A stretch of DNA of 64,000 nucleotides from the NCBI GenBank assembly GCA_946186575.1, contig CAMHNO010000006.1, positions 26,155 to 90,154 on the forward strand, in the 5' to 3' direction. The DNA comes from an uncultured Prevotellaceae bacterium (GTDB taxonomy: Bacteria; Bacteroidota; Bacteroidia; Bacteroidales; Muribaculaceae). The notes below the pieces were generated by a model. The model did no database searches, was not told the origin of the DNA, and saw only the letters and a program-made list of their open reading frames with translations. Positions 8,220 through 61,573 of the stretch are shown piece by piece. The translations under genes and the position numbers were made by a program. Every line of letters begins with the position of its first letter. Within the stretch, counting starts at the first letter, position 1.

Positions 8220-8906
8220 TTACTGATACCTGACGATGTCGAATCCCATGCGCACTCCGTCGAAGTTCTTGCTCAGCTCGCCAATGGTGGAGAGGGTGCT
8301 GTTGCCGGTGAGCTTGGTGATGGTTTGAAGCACATTGAGAAGTTTTTTCGACTCCATAGTAATCGACAGTCCGCTCGTGGTGCGTGTTACATAGGTTGGA
8401 ATTGTGAAGAGCATGGTCTTGAGGTTGAGCTTGCTGTCGTTAGGATTGAAGGTGTAGGTGCCGCTCAAGGGGATGTTTCTGATTCTTGCCTCGAACTGTC
8501 CGTTTTCGGCAAAAGTGAAATAGGTGTTGTTGTTGGCAATGCCCAGTGAGCCGTAGACCGAGTTGAGCTTCTGCTTCACTTGTGTGGCAGCTACCGAGCC
8601 GCCAGCCTTGGCAAGAAGATTCTCGCTTGTGAAAGCGCAGCCTGGTTCGCTGTAGACCCAAGTGCCTATCAGTGAAGACTGGTCAAGCTTCACGTGCCCA
8701 ATCACCATGTCGAGAAGTCCCTCGGCAGTGTTAGCGTTAAACACCCCGCCAAGCACTCCGCCGAGCACGTTGCCTAATCCGCCTCCCGTTGACGTGCCGT
8801 TTCCTGTGCCCATGACATTGCCCAGCATGCCCATGCCTTGCGTGCCGCATCCAGTCAAGCCTATCGAAATGGCAAGAATTGCAGTGTAGATAGTTTTTCT
8901 AAACAT
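8220..8906 (-). CDS. DUF4923 family lipoprotein (copy 1)
   Basis: A 228-residue lipoprotein with lipobox LTGC (acylated Cys20), then a glycine-rich low-complexity linker (about 21-60), then a globular domain with L-x-GTWVY-x-x-P-G-x-A-F-T-S-x-N-L-L, as in the DUF4923 family of Bacteroidota. The middle (FTFAENGQFEARIRNIPLSGTYTFNP) looks like a lipocalin-type strand meander. Function unknown; location is expected to be the periplasm or outer membrane. It lies 70 bp after a paralogue on the same strand (8977-9714) and has no obvious promoter of its own, so it is the second gene of a duplicated pair. Confidence 0.88.
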   Translation of the reverse strand: MFRKTIYTAILAISIGLTGCGTQGMGMLGNVMGTGNGTSTGGGLGNVLGGVLGGVFNANTAEGLLDMVIGHVKLDQSSLIGTWVYSEPGCAFTSENLLAKAGGSVAATQVKQKLNSVYGSLGIANNNTYFTFAENGQFEARIRNIPLSGTYTFNPNDSKLNLKTMLFTIPTYVTRTTSGLSITMESKKLLNVLQTITKLTGNSTLSTIGELSKNFDGVRMGFDIVRYQ

Positions 8907-8976
8907 AATATTTCAAATATTTTTCAATTAAACCGAAATTTACTTGGATGGTTGTTAGAATTAACCGCTCAGGGGG

Positions 8977-9714
8977 TTACCTCTGAACCACCTTGGCCAT
9001 GTCAAATCCCATGCGCACACCATTAAGGCTCTTGCCCATGTTGCCTATTGCATTGATGCTGCTGTTGGTTTTTGATGAATTGAGGGCTTTGAGCATGTTG
9101 ATGAGCATATTCGCCTCCATGGTGATTGACATGCCATTGTCGGAGCTTGAAATAAATGCAGGGATAGTGCCCGCAGTAGTCTTGAGGTTCAGACTTCCTG
9201 TGCTGGGATTCAGGGTGTAGGTTCCCTTCATGGGCAGCCCATTGAGATAGGCCTCGAAATTGCCGTTGCTGTCGAATGCGAAGCCGGTGTTGTTGTTCTT
9301 GATGCCAATTGAATTGTAGGCCTGAGCGAGTTTGTCCATAACTTGGCTGGCAGCTGCCGTGCCTCCGGCCTGGGCAAGAAGATTCTTGCTTGTGAAAGCA
9401 ACGCCTGGGCGAGCATAAACCCAAGTGCCTGCCAGCTGCGACTGTTCAACCCTTGTGGAGCCAATAACAGCATTGGCCTGGTTGGTAACTGTGTTGTCGG
9501 TGAGAGCGCTTCCGAAGATAGAGCCTAACCCACCGCCCGAACTTGCCATGCCGCCCAGTACGCTTCCGAGCACGCTTCCTAAAACGCTGGAACTTGTGCC
9601 TGTTGTAGTGCCTGCGCCACCAAAAATGTTGCCAAGCAACCCGCCTGAGCTAACGCATCCTGTTAATCCAATAGATAAAGCTAATGCTGCAGTGTAAAGA
9701 GTTTTTCTAATCAT
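8977..9714 (-). CDS. DUF4923 family lipoprotein (copy 2)
   Basis: A 245-residue paralogue of the adjacent 8220-8906 product. It shares the MxRKT(L/I)YTA start, lipobox LTGC (Cys20), glycine-rich linker, GTWVY-x-x-PG core and the C-terminal L-x-GVRMGFD motif. The two have diverged enough to suggest an old tandem duplication. It is the first gene of the pair, with a minus-strand promoter-like sequence at 9762-9790. Function unknown. Confidence 0.88.
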   Translation of the reverse strand: MIRKTLYTAALALSIGLTGCVSSGGLLGNIFGGAGTTTGTSSSVLGSVLGSVLGGMASSGGGLGSIFGSALTDNTVTNQANAVIGSTRVEQSQLAGTWVYARPGVAFTSKNLLAQAGGTAAASQVMDKLAQAYNSIGIKNNNTGFAFDSNGNFEAYLNGLPMKGTYTLNPSTGSLNLKTTAGTIPAFISSSDNGMSITMEANMLINMLKALNSSKTNSSINAIGNMGKSLNGVRMGFDMAKVVQR

Positions 9715-9996: not shown

Positions 9997-12747
9997 ATGA
10001 GACTTAAACTTTTTTTGCTTCTTTCGCTCTTTTTGAGCCTCAACGTGTGGGCTCAAACGGGGATCAGGGGCGTCGTGGTGGACTCGCGCACCAGTGTGCC
10101 TGTTGTGGGAGCTACTGTTCTGCTCGACGAGCAGGGAGTGAGCGCCATCACAGGTCCGAGTGGTGACTTCGTCATCACCGACGCTAAACCAGGTAATGAC
10201 AAGCTCATGATTTTCAACTACGGATATCGTGACCTGATCATGGATGTCATGATTCTTAACGGAATTGACGACCTGGGAATCATCAAGCTTGAACCTGCCG
10301 GGGCATCGACCGACACCGAGAACGATGCTGCAAGCGACATTATCCTCACCGAGTCGCAACTCGAGGACGAGGAGGGCAACTCGCAGCAGGTGGGAGCCTT
10401 GACTGGGGCTACCGACAACCCCTACTACAAGGCTACAAACTACAACTTCAGTACAATGCGATTCCGCATTCGTGGTTACAACAATGAGTACAGCCAGACC
10501 TACATTAATGGCATCAACTTCAACGATGCTGCTCGCGGCCGATTCAATTACTCGATGATTGGAGGAATGAACCAGGCTTTCAAGAGCCGCAGCGTGGGGT
10601 ATGCCACCGAAGCAACGAACTTTGGCTTTGGCGATATTGGCGGTGCAACCAACATCTTCACATACGCTAAGGACTATGCTCCTGGCTTCAGAGGAAGCGT
10701 GGCCTACACTAACAGCAACTACCGCTGGCGTGGCATGGTGACCTACAGCACTGGCTTGAACCAGCATGGCTGGGCGCTGACGCTGAGTGCAATTGCCCGC
10801 TATGCGGGAGAAGGCATTATTCCTGGCTCCTTCTACAACAGCTGGGGAGCTTTCATGTCGCTGCAGAAGGTGATTAACCAGCATCACTCGGTGTCGCTCA
10901 CCCTGTTTGGAGCGCCCACTAAGCGTGCCAGCAACTCGGCAACCTTCGACGAGGCCTACAAACTTGCTGGAACCAACCTCTACAACACCAACTGGGGCTG
11001 GCAAGAGGGCAAGAAGCGCAATGCAAGGGTGGTTGAGTCGTTCGACCCAACAGCCATTCTGAGCTGGATTTGGACACCTAAGACAGGAACCACTCTCACT
11101 ACTGGCCTGGCCTTCCACAAGTCGTTCTACGCCACGAGCGCACTCAACTGGTACAACTCGCGCGACCCTCGTCCCGACTACTACCGCTACCTGCCATCGT
11201 ATTATGCCACCACCAGTCCCGAGACTGCCGAGCTCTTCGAGGACGAATGGCTCAACATGGAGGAGAAGCGACAGCTCAACTGGGACAAGCTCTACCAAAC
11301 TAACTATCTGAACAACTACGAGTTTGAGCAAGGTGGTGAAGACAAGGGTTCGAGCTATGTGATTGAGAAGCGCCACAGCAACCAGTTTAACTGGATACTG
11401 AGCACCAACCTCAACAAACGCATCAATTCCACACTGTCGCTGCAAGGTGGCGCGAGTGCCAACTACAGCCGCTCGTCCTACTTCAAGACCATGAAGGACC
11501 TGCTGGGCGGGCGTTACTGGCTCGACGTTGACCAGTATGCCGAGCGCGACTTCCCGGGCGATGCCGAGATGCTTCAGAACGACCTTGAGAATCCTAACCG
11601 CCGCATCCTTGAGGGTGACCGCTTTGGTTATGACTACAACATCAACTCAATCACAGGCCGACTCTGGATTCAGAATGTAATAAACCTTAGCAAGTTTGAC
11701 TTTAACTATGGTGCTCAAGTGAGCGCTACATCGTTCCAGCGCGACGGCAAGATGCGCAACGGACGTGCCCCCGAGAACTCGCTGGGCAAGGGCGAGAGCC
11801 ACAGCTTCATCAACTTTGCCGTTAAGGGTGGCATGATCTACAAGATTGACGGTCGCAACAACATTCAGCTGCATGCCTACTATGGCACACGAGCTCCACA
11901 ATATAATAACGCTTACATCTCGCCCCGCATCAAGGACGACGTGATTGCCAACCTCAAGAACGAGCGCGTGCTCTCGGGCGACATAGGCTATGTGTGGAAC
12001 TACCGCAGGTTCATGGGTTCGATCACTGGTTTCTGGACCGAGTTCTGGGATGCGACCGAGAGAACCTCGTTCTACGACGACTACAACAGCACGTTTGTAA
12101 ACTACGCACTCACTGGCGTGCGCAAGGAGCACAAGGGTGTTGAGATTGGGGCGGCCTACAAGATCACTCCATCGCTCACCGTTAACGCTGCTGCCACAAT
12201 AGCACGCTACCAGTATAAGAACCGCCCACTGGGCACTCGCAGCTTTGAGAACGGCTCGGTGGCCGATGTCACTCAGACGGTTTACCTCAAGAACTTCTAT
12301 GTGAGCGGCACTCCTCAAGAGGCTTACAGCTTAGGATTCAACTGGAGCGCTCCCAACATGTGGTTCTTCGAAATTAATGGTGTGTGGATGAATCGCTCTT
12401 ATGTTGACCTTTCGCCCATCCGCCACGAGGTGCTGCCTGAGCTCTACACCAAGGCTTCGAGCGAGCAAGAGCTCATCCAGATGATGCAAGACATTGGCAA
12501 GCAAGAGAAACTCAACGAGGCGTTGATTATCAACATGAGCATTGGCAAGGTGATTTATCTGAGCCGCTCTGCGTCGCTCAACCTCAACCTGAGCCTGAAC
12601 AACCTGCTCAACAACACCAACATCCAGACCGGTGGTTACCAGCAGGGACGATTTGACTACAAGAACTACACCACAGCCAAGTTCCCTAACAAGTACTACT
12701 ATGCTCAAGGATTCCGCATGTATCTTAATGTGGGTGTGAGATTCTAA
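9997..12747 (+). CDS. TonB-dependent outer-membrane receptor with carboxypeptidase-regulatory-like domain
   Basis: A 916-residue receptor. After the signal peptide (MRLKLFLLLSLFLSLNVWAQ) comes a CarboxypepD_reg-like beta-sandwich (about 21-105, IRGVVVDSRTSVPVVGATVLL), an acidic spacer, a plug domain (about 140-230, FRIRGYNNEYSQTYINGINFN) and a 22-strand-type barrel ending in aromatic MYLNVGVRF. It imports a ligand through the outer membrane using TonB/ExbBD energy. No SusD partner follows; instead a DUF5689 lipoprotein starts 41 bp later, and this pair probably forms the uptake unit. The frame is open back to 9946, but the signal peptide begins at 9997. Ligand unknown. Confidence 0.9.
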   Translation: MRLKLFLLLSLFLSLNVWAQTGIRGVVVDSRTSVPVVGATVLLDEQGVSAITGPSGDFVITDAKPGNDKLMIFNYGYRDLIMDVMILNGIDDLGIIKLEPAGASTDTENDAASDIILTESQLEDEEGNSQQVGALTGATDNPYYKATNYNFSTMRFRIRGYNNEYSQTYINGINFNDAARGRFNYSMIGGMNQAFKSRSVGYATEATNFGFGDIGGATNIFTYAKDYAPGFRGSVAYTNSNYRWRGMVTYSTGLNQHGWALTLSAIARYAGEGIIPGSFYNSWGAFMSLQKVINQHHSVSLTLFGAPTKRASNSATFDEAYKLAGTNLYNTNWGWQEGKKRNARVVESFDPTAILSWIWTPKTGTTLTTGLAFHKSFYATSALNWYNSRDPRPDYYRYLPSYYATTSPETAELFEDEWLNMEEKRQLNWDKLYQTNYLNNYEFEQGGEDKGSSYVIEKRHSNQFNWILSTNLNKRINSTLSLQGGASANYSRSSYFKTMKDLLGGRYWLDVDQYAERDFPGDAEMLQNDLENPNRRILEGDRFGYDYNINSITGRLWIQNVINLSKFDFNYGAQVSATSFQRDGKMRNGRAPENSLGKGESHSFINFAVKGGMIYKIDGRNNIQLHAYYGTRAPQYNNAYISPRIKDDVIANLKNERVLSGDIGYVWNYRRFMGSITGFWTEFWDATERTSFYDDYNSTFVNYALTGVRKEHKGVEIGAAYKITPSLTVNAAATIARYQYKNRPLGTRSFENGSVADVTQTVYLKNFYVSGTPQEAYSLGFNWSAPNMWFFEINGVWMNRSYVDLSPIRHEVLPELYTKASSEQELIQMMQDIGKQEKLNEALIINMSIGKVIYLSRSASLNLNLSLNNLLNNTNIQTGGYQQGRFDYKNYTTAKFPNKYYYAQGFRMYLNVGVRF

Positions 12748-60430: not shown

Positions 60431-60617
60431 CTCTTGTCCCTCATGTACATCATGTCCTTTTTTTAGACAGGAGAGACAGGAGCAACAGGAGACCAACGCT
60501 CTTGTTTCTCATGTACATCCTGTCTTTTTTTATACAGGAGAGACAGGAAAGACAGGAGATGCAATGAGCAGTGGTTCTTGTTTCTCCTGTACATCATGTC
60601 TTTTTTTAGACAGGAGA
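60431..60617. repeat. Three-unit degenerate tandem array
   Basis: Three units of about 70 bp, starting near 60431, 60500 and 60575. Each reads CTTGTxxCTC(A/C)TGTACATC(A/C)TGTC followed by a T run and (A)GACAGGAG; GTC-T7-A-GAC arms allow a hairpin, and CAGGAG is repeated within units. No gene seen here. It abuts the RAYT element on its left side. Confidence 0.75.
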
Positions 60618-60623
60618 ATTTTT
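60616..60623. repeat. 8-bp direct repeat (possible target duplication), left
   Basis: GAATTTTT, directly before the left terminal inverted repeat; identical to 61566-61573. Confidence 0.7.
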
Positions 60624-60661
60624 GGGACACCTGCAAAAACCTGTGTTAGCTTGAGAAATTG

Positions 60662-60824
60662 GGCATCGAAGATGCCGGGCGGGTCGAAGACCCGACTTCA
60701 ATCGCAAGACCATGCAACCACGAAGTGCTCGGGGAGATTTCAAAGCATAAGTCGCGCGCAGCGCGGCGTGCGGTGCCCGATAGGGCATTGAAACTCGACC
60801 CAACATTGAACCCCAAAGGGGTTC
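60662..60824. repeat. Mini-hairpin set, left side of the element
   Basis: GGCATC-GAA-GATGCC (60662-60676), CGGGTC-GAA-GACCCG (60680-60694), CGCGC-A-GCGCG (60755-60765), TGCCC-GATA-GGGCA (60774-60787) and GAACCCC-AAA-GGGGTTC (60808-60824). Confidence 0.8.
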
Positions 60825-60855
60825 GTAGCTTGGTCCCTGATGAATCTTACGAAAA

Positions 60856-60875
60856 GTGCCTCGAAGAGGAACTTC
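60856..60875. repeat. Inner inverted repeat, left arm
   Basis: GTGCCTCGAAGAGGAACTTC pairs imperfectly with the inverse at 61398-61418; its own centre folds as CCTC-GAA-GAGG. Confidence 0.75.
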
Positions 60876-60888
60876 CACGACAGGCTTT

Positions 60889-61332
60889 TCATGTGAGCCT
60901 ATAATCATTCCATTCCAGCCCTGAGCGATCTATCATCTCTTTGTACTCCTGCTCAAAAGTGTATTCTTTGTGATGCTCACGCTGGCGGTTAATATAGTTA
61001 ACGATTCTCTCCTTGTCGCGCACGCTGCACGAGAATGCGCCATATTCCTTACCCCATCCGCTGAACATGGGAAAGTAAACCTGCTGTTTCGCCCACTTGC
61101 TGCTGCCCTGTTTGATGTCACGCACCAAGTCGCTGAGTGCTATCGTCGGCGACAGCTCAACCAGCATGTGTATGTGGTTGCCTATGCCGCCAATGCGGTA
61201 GAGCTTACAGTTGCGGTTGTTTATGATTGACCAGATGTAACGGTACATGTGCTCGCTGGTCTCGTCGGGGATGGTCATCTCACGGCGGTAGGTGTTGATG
61301 ACTATGTGATAGATTGAGTTTACGGCACTCAT
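60889..61332 (-). CDS. REP-associated tyrosine (Y1/HUH) transposase, IS200-like
   Basis: A 147-residue Y1 transposase of the IS200/RAYT type. The metal-binding HUH motif is H53-I-H55 (GNHIHMLVE) and the catalytic Tyr is Y113 in VNYINRQREHHKEYTFEQEY. Length and layout match single-strand DNA transposases and the REP-associated subgroup. I chose the ATG at 61332 (MSAVNSIYHIV); the frame begins at a TTG at 61356. No accessory TnpB is present. It should bind and cut hairpins such as those flanking it. The inverted repeats and direct repeats around it are not expected for this family. Confidence 0.9.
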   Translation of the reverse strand: MSAVNSIYHIVINTYRREMTIPDETSEHMYRYIWSIINNRNCKLYRIGGIGNHIHMLVELSPTIALSDLVRDIKQGSSKWAKQQVYFPMFSGWGKEYGAFSCSVRDKERIVNYINRQREHHKEYTFEQEYKEMIDRSGLEWNDYRLT

Positions 61333-61397
61333 GTCAATATTGTTTTGTCTTGGCAAAGGTAGTGAAAATCATTTACATGGGCAACAACAGTGGTGAT

Positions 61398-61418
61398 GAA
61401 GTTCCTCTAACGAGGCAC
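61398..61418. repeat. Inner inverted repeat, right arm
   Basis: GAAGTTCCTCTAACGAGGCAC, the partner of 60856-60875. Confidence 0.75.
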
Positions 61419-61450
61419 TTTTTCATTAGATGGCACAAGGGCCAAGCTGC

Positions 61451-61522
61451 GAGGGTCTTCGACCCTCTTGCATGGCCTTAACGACAAATAGCTTCTCCGA
61501 AGCATTCAGCGTCTTCGACGCT
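61451..61522. repeat. Mini-hairpin pair, right side of the element
   Basis: GAGGGTC-TTC-GACCCTC (61451-61467) and AGCGTC-TTC-GACGCT (61508-61522). Loops read TTC, the complement of the GAA loops on the left side. Confidence 0.8.
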
Positions 61523-61565
61523 CATTGACTCATCAACATTAAACACAGTTTTTTGCAGGTGACCC

Positions 61566-61573
61566 GAATTTTT
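61566..61573. repeat. 8-bp direct repeat (possible target duplication), right
   Basis: GAATTTTT, directly after the right terminal inverted repeat; identical to 60616-60623. Confidence 0.7.

Follow-up and report, generated by a model that had tools for sequence, protein, structure and literature searches.

The window, a stretch of 64,000 nucleotides from an uncultured Prevotellaceae bacterium (genome G000), carries a Y1 transposase gene inside an element bounded by 24-bp terminal inverted repeats. The left repeat (GGGACACC..., 60624-60647) and the right repeat (...GGTGACCC, 61542-61565) are identical at 22 of 24 positions, as an earlier note on this DNA had described, and the extended inverted-repeat arms reach 27 nt (89%). 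When the window was searched with the 24-mer end, allowing up to 3 mismatches, 2 matches were observed, against none in 100 dinucleotide shuffles. The same 8-bp sequence, GAATTTTT, abuts the element on the left (60616-60623) and on the right (61566-61573), which bears out the gapless flanking direct repeat that had also been reported. At junctions of comparable composition, exact agreement of two 8-bp flanks is expected by chance in about 3 of 10,000 pairs (0.0198 among 64 combinations).

Between the ends lie a left palindrome array (60648-60851) that includes GGGTCGAAGACCC and a GACCATGCAA...TAGCTTGGTCC hairpin, and of which similar pieces recur elsewhere in the genome, on other contigs; a minus-strand gene for a Y1 (HUH) transposase (60889-61332); and a right palindrome array (61423-61541). 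The gene is set between two inner palindromes, one at its 3′ end (60852-60874) and the other, in inverted orientation, upstream of it (61399-61422). It is the only gene recognized within the element, and neither the open reading frames nor profile searches revealed an ISL3/ISAon1 DDE transposase gene there. Phage records gave no DNA match. Adjacent to it, at 60432-60617, a 42-nt repeat containing CATGTACATC and GACAGGAG words is present in three imperfect copies (spacing 68 and 76) that stop right at the left target duplication; similar words occur on other contigs of the genome.

The Y1 protein is 147 amino acids long from the ATG at 61332, and a TTG start at 61356 is likewise open. The gene product matches Y1_Tnp (PF01797, E 9.4e-21), the only domain that Pfam detects in the 155-aa window protein, and its NHIH motif and Tyr motif (YINRQREHH) are intact. 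The NCBIfam IS200 model scores the protein at 58.2 bits against a cut-off of 55, and the REP-associated model at 26.1 bits against a cut-off of 80; the Y1 proteins of L149, L118 and L089, three elements discussed below, also fall under the latter cut-off. The pattern Y---Q--HH, published as the signature of subclass 1.2 (PMC6006769), is present at 66 of 67 Y1 loci, including that in the window. Judged by its motif and profile scores, the window protein is an IS200-like member of subclass 1.2 and not a typical RAYT, and the name RAYT used in the earlier note is best replaced by subclass 1.2 Y1 transposase.

Related Y1 genes also occur without such ends. Fourteen of the 66 related Y1 loci fall into one chromosomal neighbourhood cluster (single linkage), and none of these has a recognizable end (best match at most 0.70). 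Of 63 loci with sufficient flanking sequence, 28 have the inner palindrome pair (up to 4/19 mismatches, ungapped), compared with 0 of 63 shuffled loci; four of the 67 loci were skipped in this count, and the window itself scored as a miss, one of its palindromes carrying an extra base. We see two layers in the element: the Y1 unit and its palindromes on the inside, and DDE ends on the outside.

Type I ends and the ISAon1-type IS

The earlier note had proposed that the genome and its relatives be searched for the 24-bp end. With three mismatches allowed, this end pattern (type I) was found in 23 of 101 congeneric genomes, and the reversed control gave 0 matches in all 101. The records of the named relatives are of gut and rumen Bacteroidales labelled Muribaculaceae, Prevotellaceae or Porphyromonadaceae. 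In two of the 23 genomes with the pattern, G036 and G025, contigs break about 115 bp inside the type I end, as expected for a repeated IS, and the codons that run directly up to the right end encode the C-terminal part of an ISAon1-family transposase. When the ends from G036 are placed side by side with those of the window they have the same form, GGGACACC on the left and GGTGACCC on the right, and the parts of the IS that were seen contain no Y1 gene. A full-length relative in G021 has an ISL3 DDE domain (NCBIfam NF049917, Pfam PF01610); no type I ends surround that copy, and the genus set yielded the two ends of an autonomous IS with type I ends, not an intact one. A 195-bp locus, L180, combines 91 nt that resemble the 3′ end of the IS (78%) with 103 nt similar to the 5′ end (86%), a composition that identifies it, at the sequence level, as a MITE formed by internal deletion of an ISAon1-type IS. 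The type I ends belong to an ISAon1-type (ISL3-like, DDE) IS rather than to the Y1 gene.

The length of the IS target duplication was measured on the type I ISs of G036 and G025, using all 16 IS junctions of the former and all 8 of the latter with no selection for matching flanks. When the flanks of left ends were paired with those of right ends, 5 of the 8 insertions in G036 and all 4 in G025 (9 of 12 overall) agreed exactly over 8 bp, and none did over 9 bp. Random expectation was 0.02 for G036 and 0.003 for G025, and slid controls averaged 0.04 and 0, respectively. On this contig-end pairing test we reject a coincidental direct repeat. The window element resembles ISAon1-family/ISL3-like ISs in its terminal inverted repeats and 8-bp target duplication (known on the IS side from G036 and G025), but differs from them in lacking the ISAon1 genes.

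Copies, flanks and a second end type

A DNA search of the window's genome returned 29 matching pieces. A second Y1 copy lies on contig C53 (99.8% identity across 617 nt), and the copies with the window's ends but without the transposase gene that the earlier note had suggested looking for are present in the same genome. Two are on contig C52, at 8608-9069 with flanks AAAATGAT/AAAATTAT and at 10553-10859 (L033 2554-2860) with unmatched flanks, and one is on C12 (25498-25589), flanked on both sides by CATTTAAT. Because of these gene-less copies, type I ends must move, or have moved, without the Y1 gene too. The centre of C52:10553-10859 is a single inner palindrome at the gene's place, joined at a short AAGT that in the window copy occurs on either side of the gene, a structure compatible with either gene loss or insertion of the inner unit.

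Other end sequences also occur in this genome. An alternative left sequence, TGACGAAGTCAGGA, replaces the type I end in two cassette copies at the starts of C53 and C4 (L032 1-60 and L034 1-60). Palindrome arrays that resemble the window's but lack Y1 are bounded by a third end type, GYAACWRTTCWSCGATT, at L036 (C15), L038 (C12), L039 (C6) and L035/L040 (C66/C29); its flanks include the exact 8-bp repeats CATGCCAA, GATAAAGA and TTGCTTTC, and the pair GCCTGTGG/GCCTGTGT, which agrees at 7 of 8 positions.

A generic scan for inverted ends together with an exactly repeated 8-mer covered 67 loci, comprising the window and 66 of 70 related loci (the fragments L134, L136, L138 and L139 were left out). 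Besides the window, L116, L118 and L120 matched (15-18/20 in the ends). L089 was weaker, at 12/20, yet its left end fits the pattern that we term type II at 19/20. In all, 4 of 67 loci reached 15/20, and 9 others scored 12-13, which we take as background apart from L089, given the fit of its ends to type II. Perfect 8-bp duplications that differ from one another (TTAAATAA, CCGAAAAC, ACTATCAG and CTTTTTAG, respectively) surround L116, L118, L120 and L089, all four of which encode Y1_Tnp. One form of the type II end (2 mismatches) occurs in 43 of 101 genomes with 9 control matches, so single weak matches among those 43 may be due to chance. In G008 and G079, ISAon1-type ISs terminate on the right in the other form, GGCTCAGCGGAAAATTAGTG, which lies directly at the transposase stop codon; a 75-bp MITE retains 31 nt of that end, among them the stop codon and the four codons before it.

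Both end types enclose Y1 genes of several kinds. Within type II ends are genes about 74% (L089) and 55-56% (L116, L118 and L120) identical to that in the window, while type I ends hold the window gene and two more distantly related Y1 genes, in L149 (G029:C2) and L174 (G017:C73), both PF01797. That end type does not track Y1 kinship fits capture. With its left end placed 2 nt further in, L149 is flanked by GTCTTCAG on both sides; the flanks of L174 do not match. Among the nine Y1-bearing elements with both ends seen, six (the window, L116, L118, L120, L089 and L149) have an 8/8 duplication; the remaining three (L096, L174 and L178, the last a gene remnant only) have none.

The flanks of short copies must be read with their ascertainment in mind. 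Of 17 type I pairs on one contig, 12 have flanks that do not match, perhaps because these copies are old or rearranged, and five reach 7 or 8 of 8 (the window, L149, the CATTTAAT copy, L033c and L176); among these, the window match is the earlier reader's own, that of L149 depends on moving the left end in by 2 nt, and the CATTTAAT match was seen by eye. Eight type II pairs at 7 or 8 of 8 come from searches that required such agreement, and three found by their ends alone score 5, 6 and 1. In a permutation control, 14 of 29 pairs scored at least 7, against a permuted mean of 0.55 and a maximum of 5, a result that leaves the ascertainment bias in place; our reliance is on the contig-end test. 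The earlier note held that unduplicated flanks around other copies would make the target duplication a matter of chance. Such flanks are indeed seen around the 12 type I pairs, whereas the IS insertions are duplicated in 9 of 12 cases.

Element-free sites, which the same note had recommended seeking, were recovered in part. G026 has no element between the same two neighbour genes, and, for L089, nine relatives all lack the element; these were chosen for a single match spanning the joined thyA-tRNA flank (the gene names are our own reading), and in seven of the nine the match starts at query base 1-3 and extends to at least base 408. A single 8-mer could not be read at any of them, the intergenic DNA being too divergent.

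Probable origin and mobility of the element

We conclude, with a probability of roughly 0.85, that the segment is a non-autonomous cassette with ISAon1-type (ISL3-like) DDE ends that carries the Y1 gene as a passenger, in the manner of a mobile insertion cassette (MIC). An ISAon1-type transposase would cut at the 24-bp ends and insert the excised segment elsewhere, generating the 8-bp target duplication; the genes of the IS itself would have been replaced by the Y1 gene and its flanking inner palindromes. We infer that a MITE of the ISAon1 type took up the Y1 unit and that an ISAon1 enzyme moved the window copy. Of the two explanations offered in the earlier note, capture of the Y1 gene by a DDE-type MITE has gained support, as the ends delimit an ISAon1/ISL3-like IS with 8-bp duplications in the same genus and also a deletion MITE. 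The other, a Y1 group that uses inverted ends by an unknown route, is much less likely; it keeps some standing because carriers with no detectable ISL3/ISAon1 transposase hold recent copies.

The outcome of the search for the mobilizing enzyme weighs against the cassette reading, as do the unmatched flanks of the type I pairs and the lack of a base-resolved empty site and of an intact IS with type I ends. The window's genome, a draft that is 94.8% complete, gave no match to ISAon1 or ISL3 transposase models. PF01610 matched in 2 of the 13 genomes searched and in 0 of the 9 carriers at least 90% complete, the window's genome among them, in a search that is not fully sensitive, having missed G036, whose IS survives as contig ends only. 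NF049917 matched in 12 of 101 genomes, none of them among the 9 well-assembled carriers. G094 contains two cassettes that are alike at 822 of 828 aligned columns and have different duplications, and no ISL3/ISAon1 enzyme was detected in that genome; near-identity combined with different duplications points to recent movement there without a visible enzyme.

These recent Y1-bearing copies in G094 would be accounted for if the Y1 enzyme itself recognized the inverted ends and inserted with an 8-bp duplication, the ISAon1 ISs merely sharing the ends by common ancestry. The several kinds of Y1 gene found in such ends, and the TIRtrons with a GGGGWSAS motif reported from several phyla (PMC3733652), lend this reading something, but we regard it as unlikely: an ISAon1 IS has the same ends and 8-bp duplications with no Y1 gene in the parts seen, the ends also occur on Y1-less copies and MITEs, the 14 clustered Y1 loci lack them, and IS200/IS605 elements as described in PMC2817692 have neither terminal inverted repeats nor larger duplications. 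In its narrower form, in which the Y1 enzyme moves the cassette through its inverted ends and leaves 8-bp duplications in genomes without an ISL3/ISAon1 transposase, the idea is similarly unlikely; if true, it would mean that an HUH transposase has adapted to DDE-type ends.

The 9 carriers at least 90% complete that have multiple ends yet no PF01610 match could instead point to ends of the ISAon1 group that another DDE transposase of the host cross-mobilizes today. No candidate enzyme was identified in transposase searches covering the ISL3/ISAon1 models, and draft assembly or strain variation can hide an ISAon1 copy, so that we hold this to be quite improbable. Least credible of all is chance, with old hairpins as the source of the inverted repeats and an 8-bp repeat that arose by coincidence in AT-rich DNA. 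The junctions are AT-rich and unmatched flanks are seen at 12 of 17 type I pairs, but against chance stand the value of about 3/10,000 per flank pair, the duplications of exactly 8 bp at 9 of 12 IS insertions, and the lack of the element between the same neighbour genes in G026.

In the preferred reading, a captured Y1 gene within DDE ends, the element compares most closely with MICs and MITEs, which have IS ends, no cognate transposase gene and a duplication of the length made by the IS, and for which activation in trans by a related IS has been proposed (PMC3129680). The window element likewise has IS-type ends (of an IS whose complete form was not assembled), an 8-bp duplication and a passenger in place of a transposase; by analogy, its cassette may be mobilized in trans by the IS transposase. 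A cognate transposase was not found in G000, and such an enzyme aids activity without being required by the MIC definition. The passenger, unlike those of the MICs described in that source, is a transposase gene of the unrelated HUH/Y1 mechanism with flanking palindromes of its own. As judged against the IS200/IS605 family, the Y1 HUH transposase is present, but so are terminal inverted repeats (22/24) and a duplication (GAATTTTT twice), which members of that family lack.

TIRtrons, published Y1 genes flanked by long inverted repeats, share with the element the long terminal repeats around a Y1 gene and the families of repeats with the same ends elsewhere in the genome (PMC3733652). Compared by eye with GGGGWSAS, the ends of the window element (GGGACAC and GGGTCAC) agree at 7 of the 8 positions, the first G being missing from both; this motif is common to some, not all, of the published TIRs (PMC3733652). 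A word search of that paper did not find the phrase 'target site dupl', and its TIRtron passages draw no link to DDE ISs or target duplications. The corresponding TIRYT proteins differ from the window protein in that 20 of 26 belong to subclass 2.1, with a C-terminal HTH (PMC6006769). With subclass 1.2 the window Y1 shares the Y---Q--HH motif, a small protein and occurrence in Bacteroidetes, although members of that subclass are described as low-copy and without IS properties (PMC6006769), whereas the window Y1 rides in a mobile cassette. Our search of the open-access literature found nothing on ISAon1.

MICs, and Y1 genes within inverted repeats, are known; what is new here is a Y1 transposase gene as the passenger of an ISAon1-type IS derivative. 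Among Y1 transposases outside classic IS200/IS605, RAYTs (PMC2817692) and subclass 1.2 (PMC6006769) have been reported to lack IS-like mobility of their own, and a Y1 gene in borrowed DDE ends probably explains how a kind of gene thought to be poorly mobile can hop. Subclass 1.2 passengers in two families of ISAon1-type ends with exact 8-bp duplications provide a concrete route of spread, and make it testable whether the published TIRtrons, whose inverted repeats are of unexplained origin, are DDE cassettes too.
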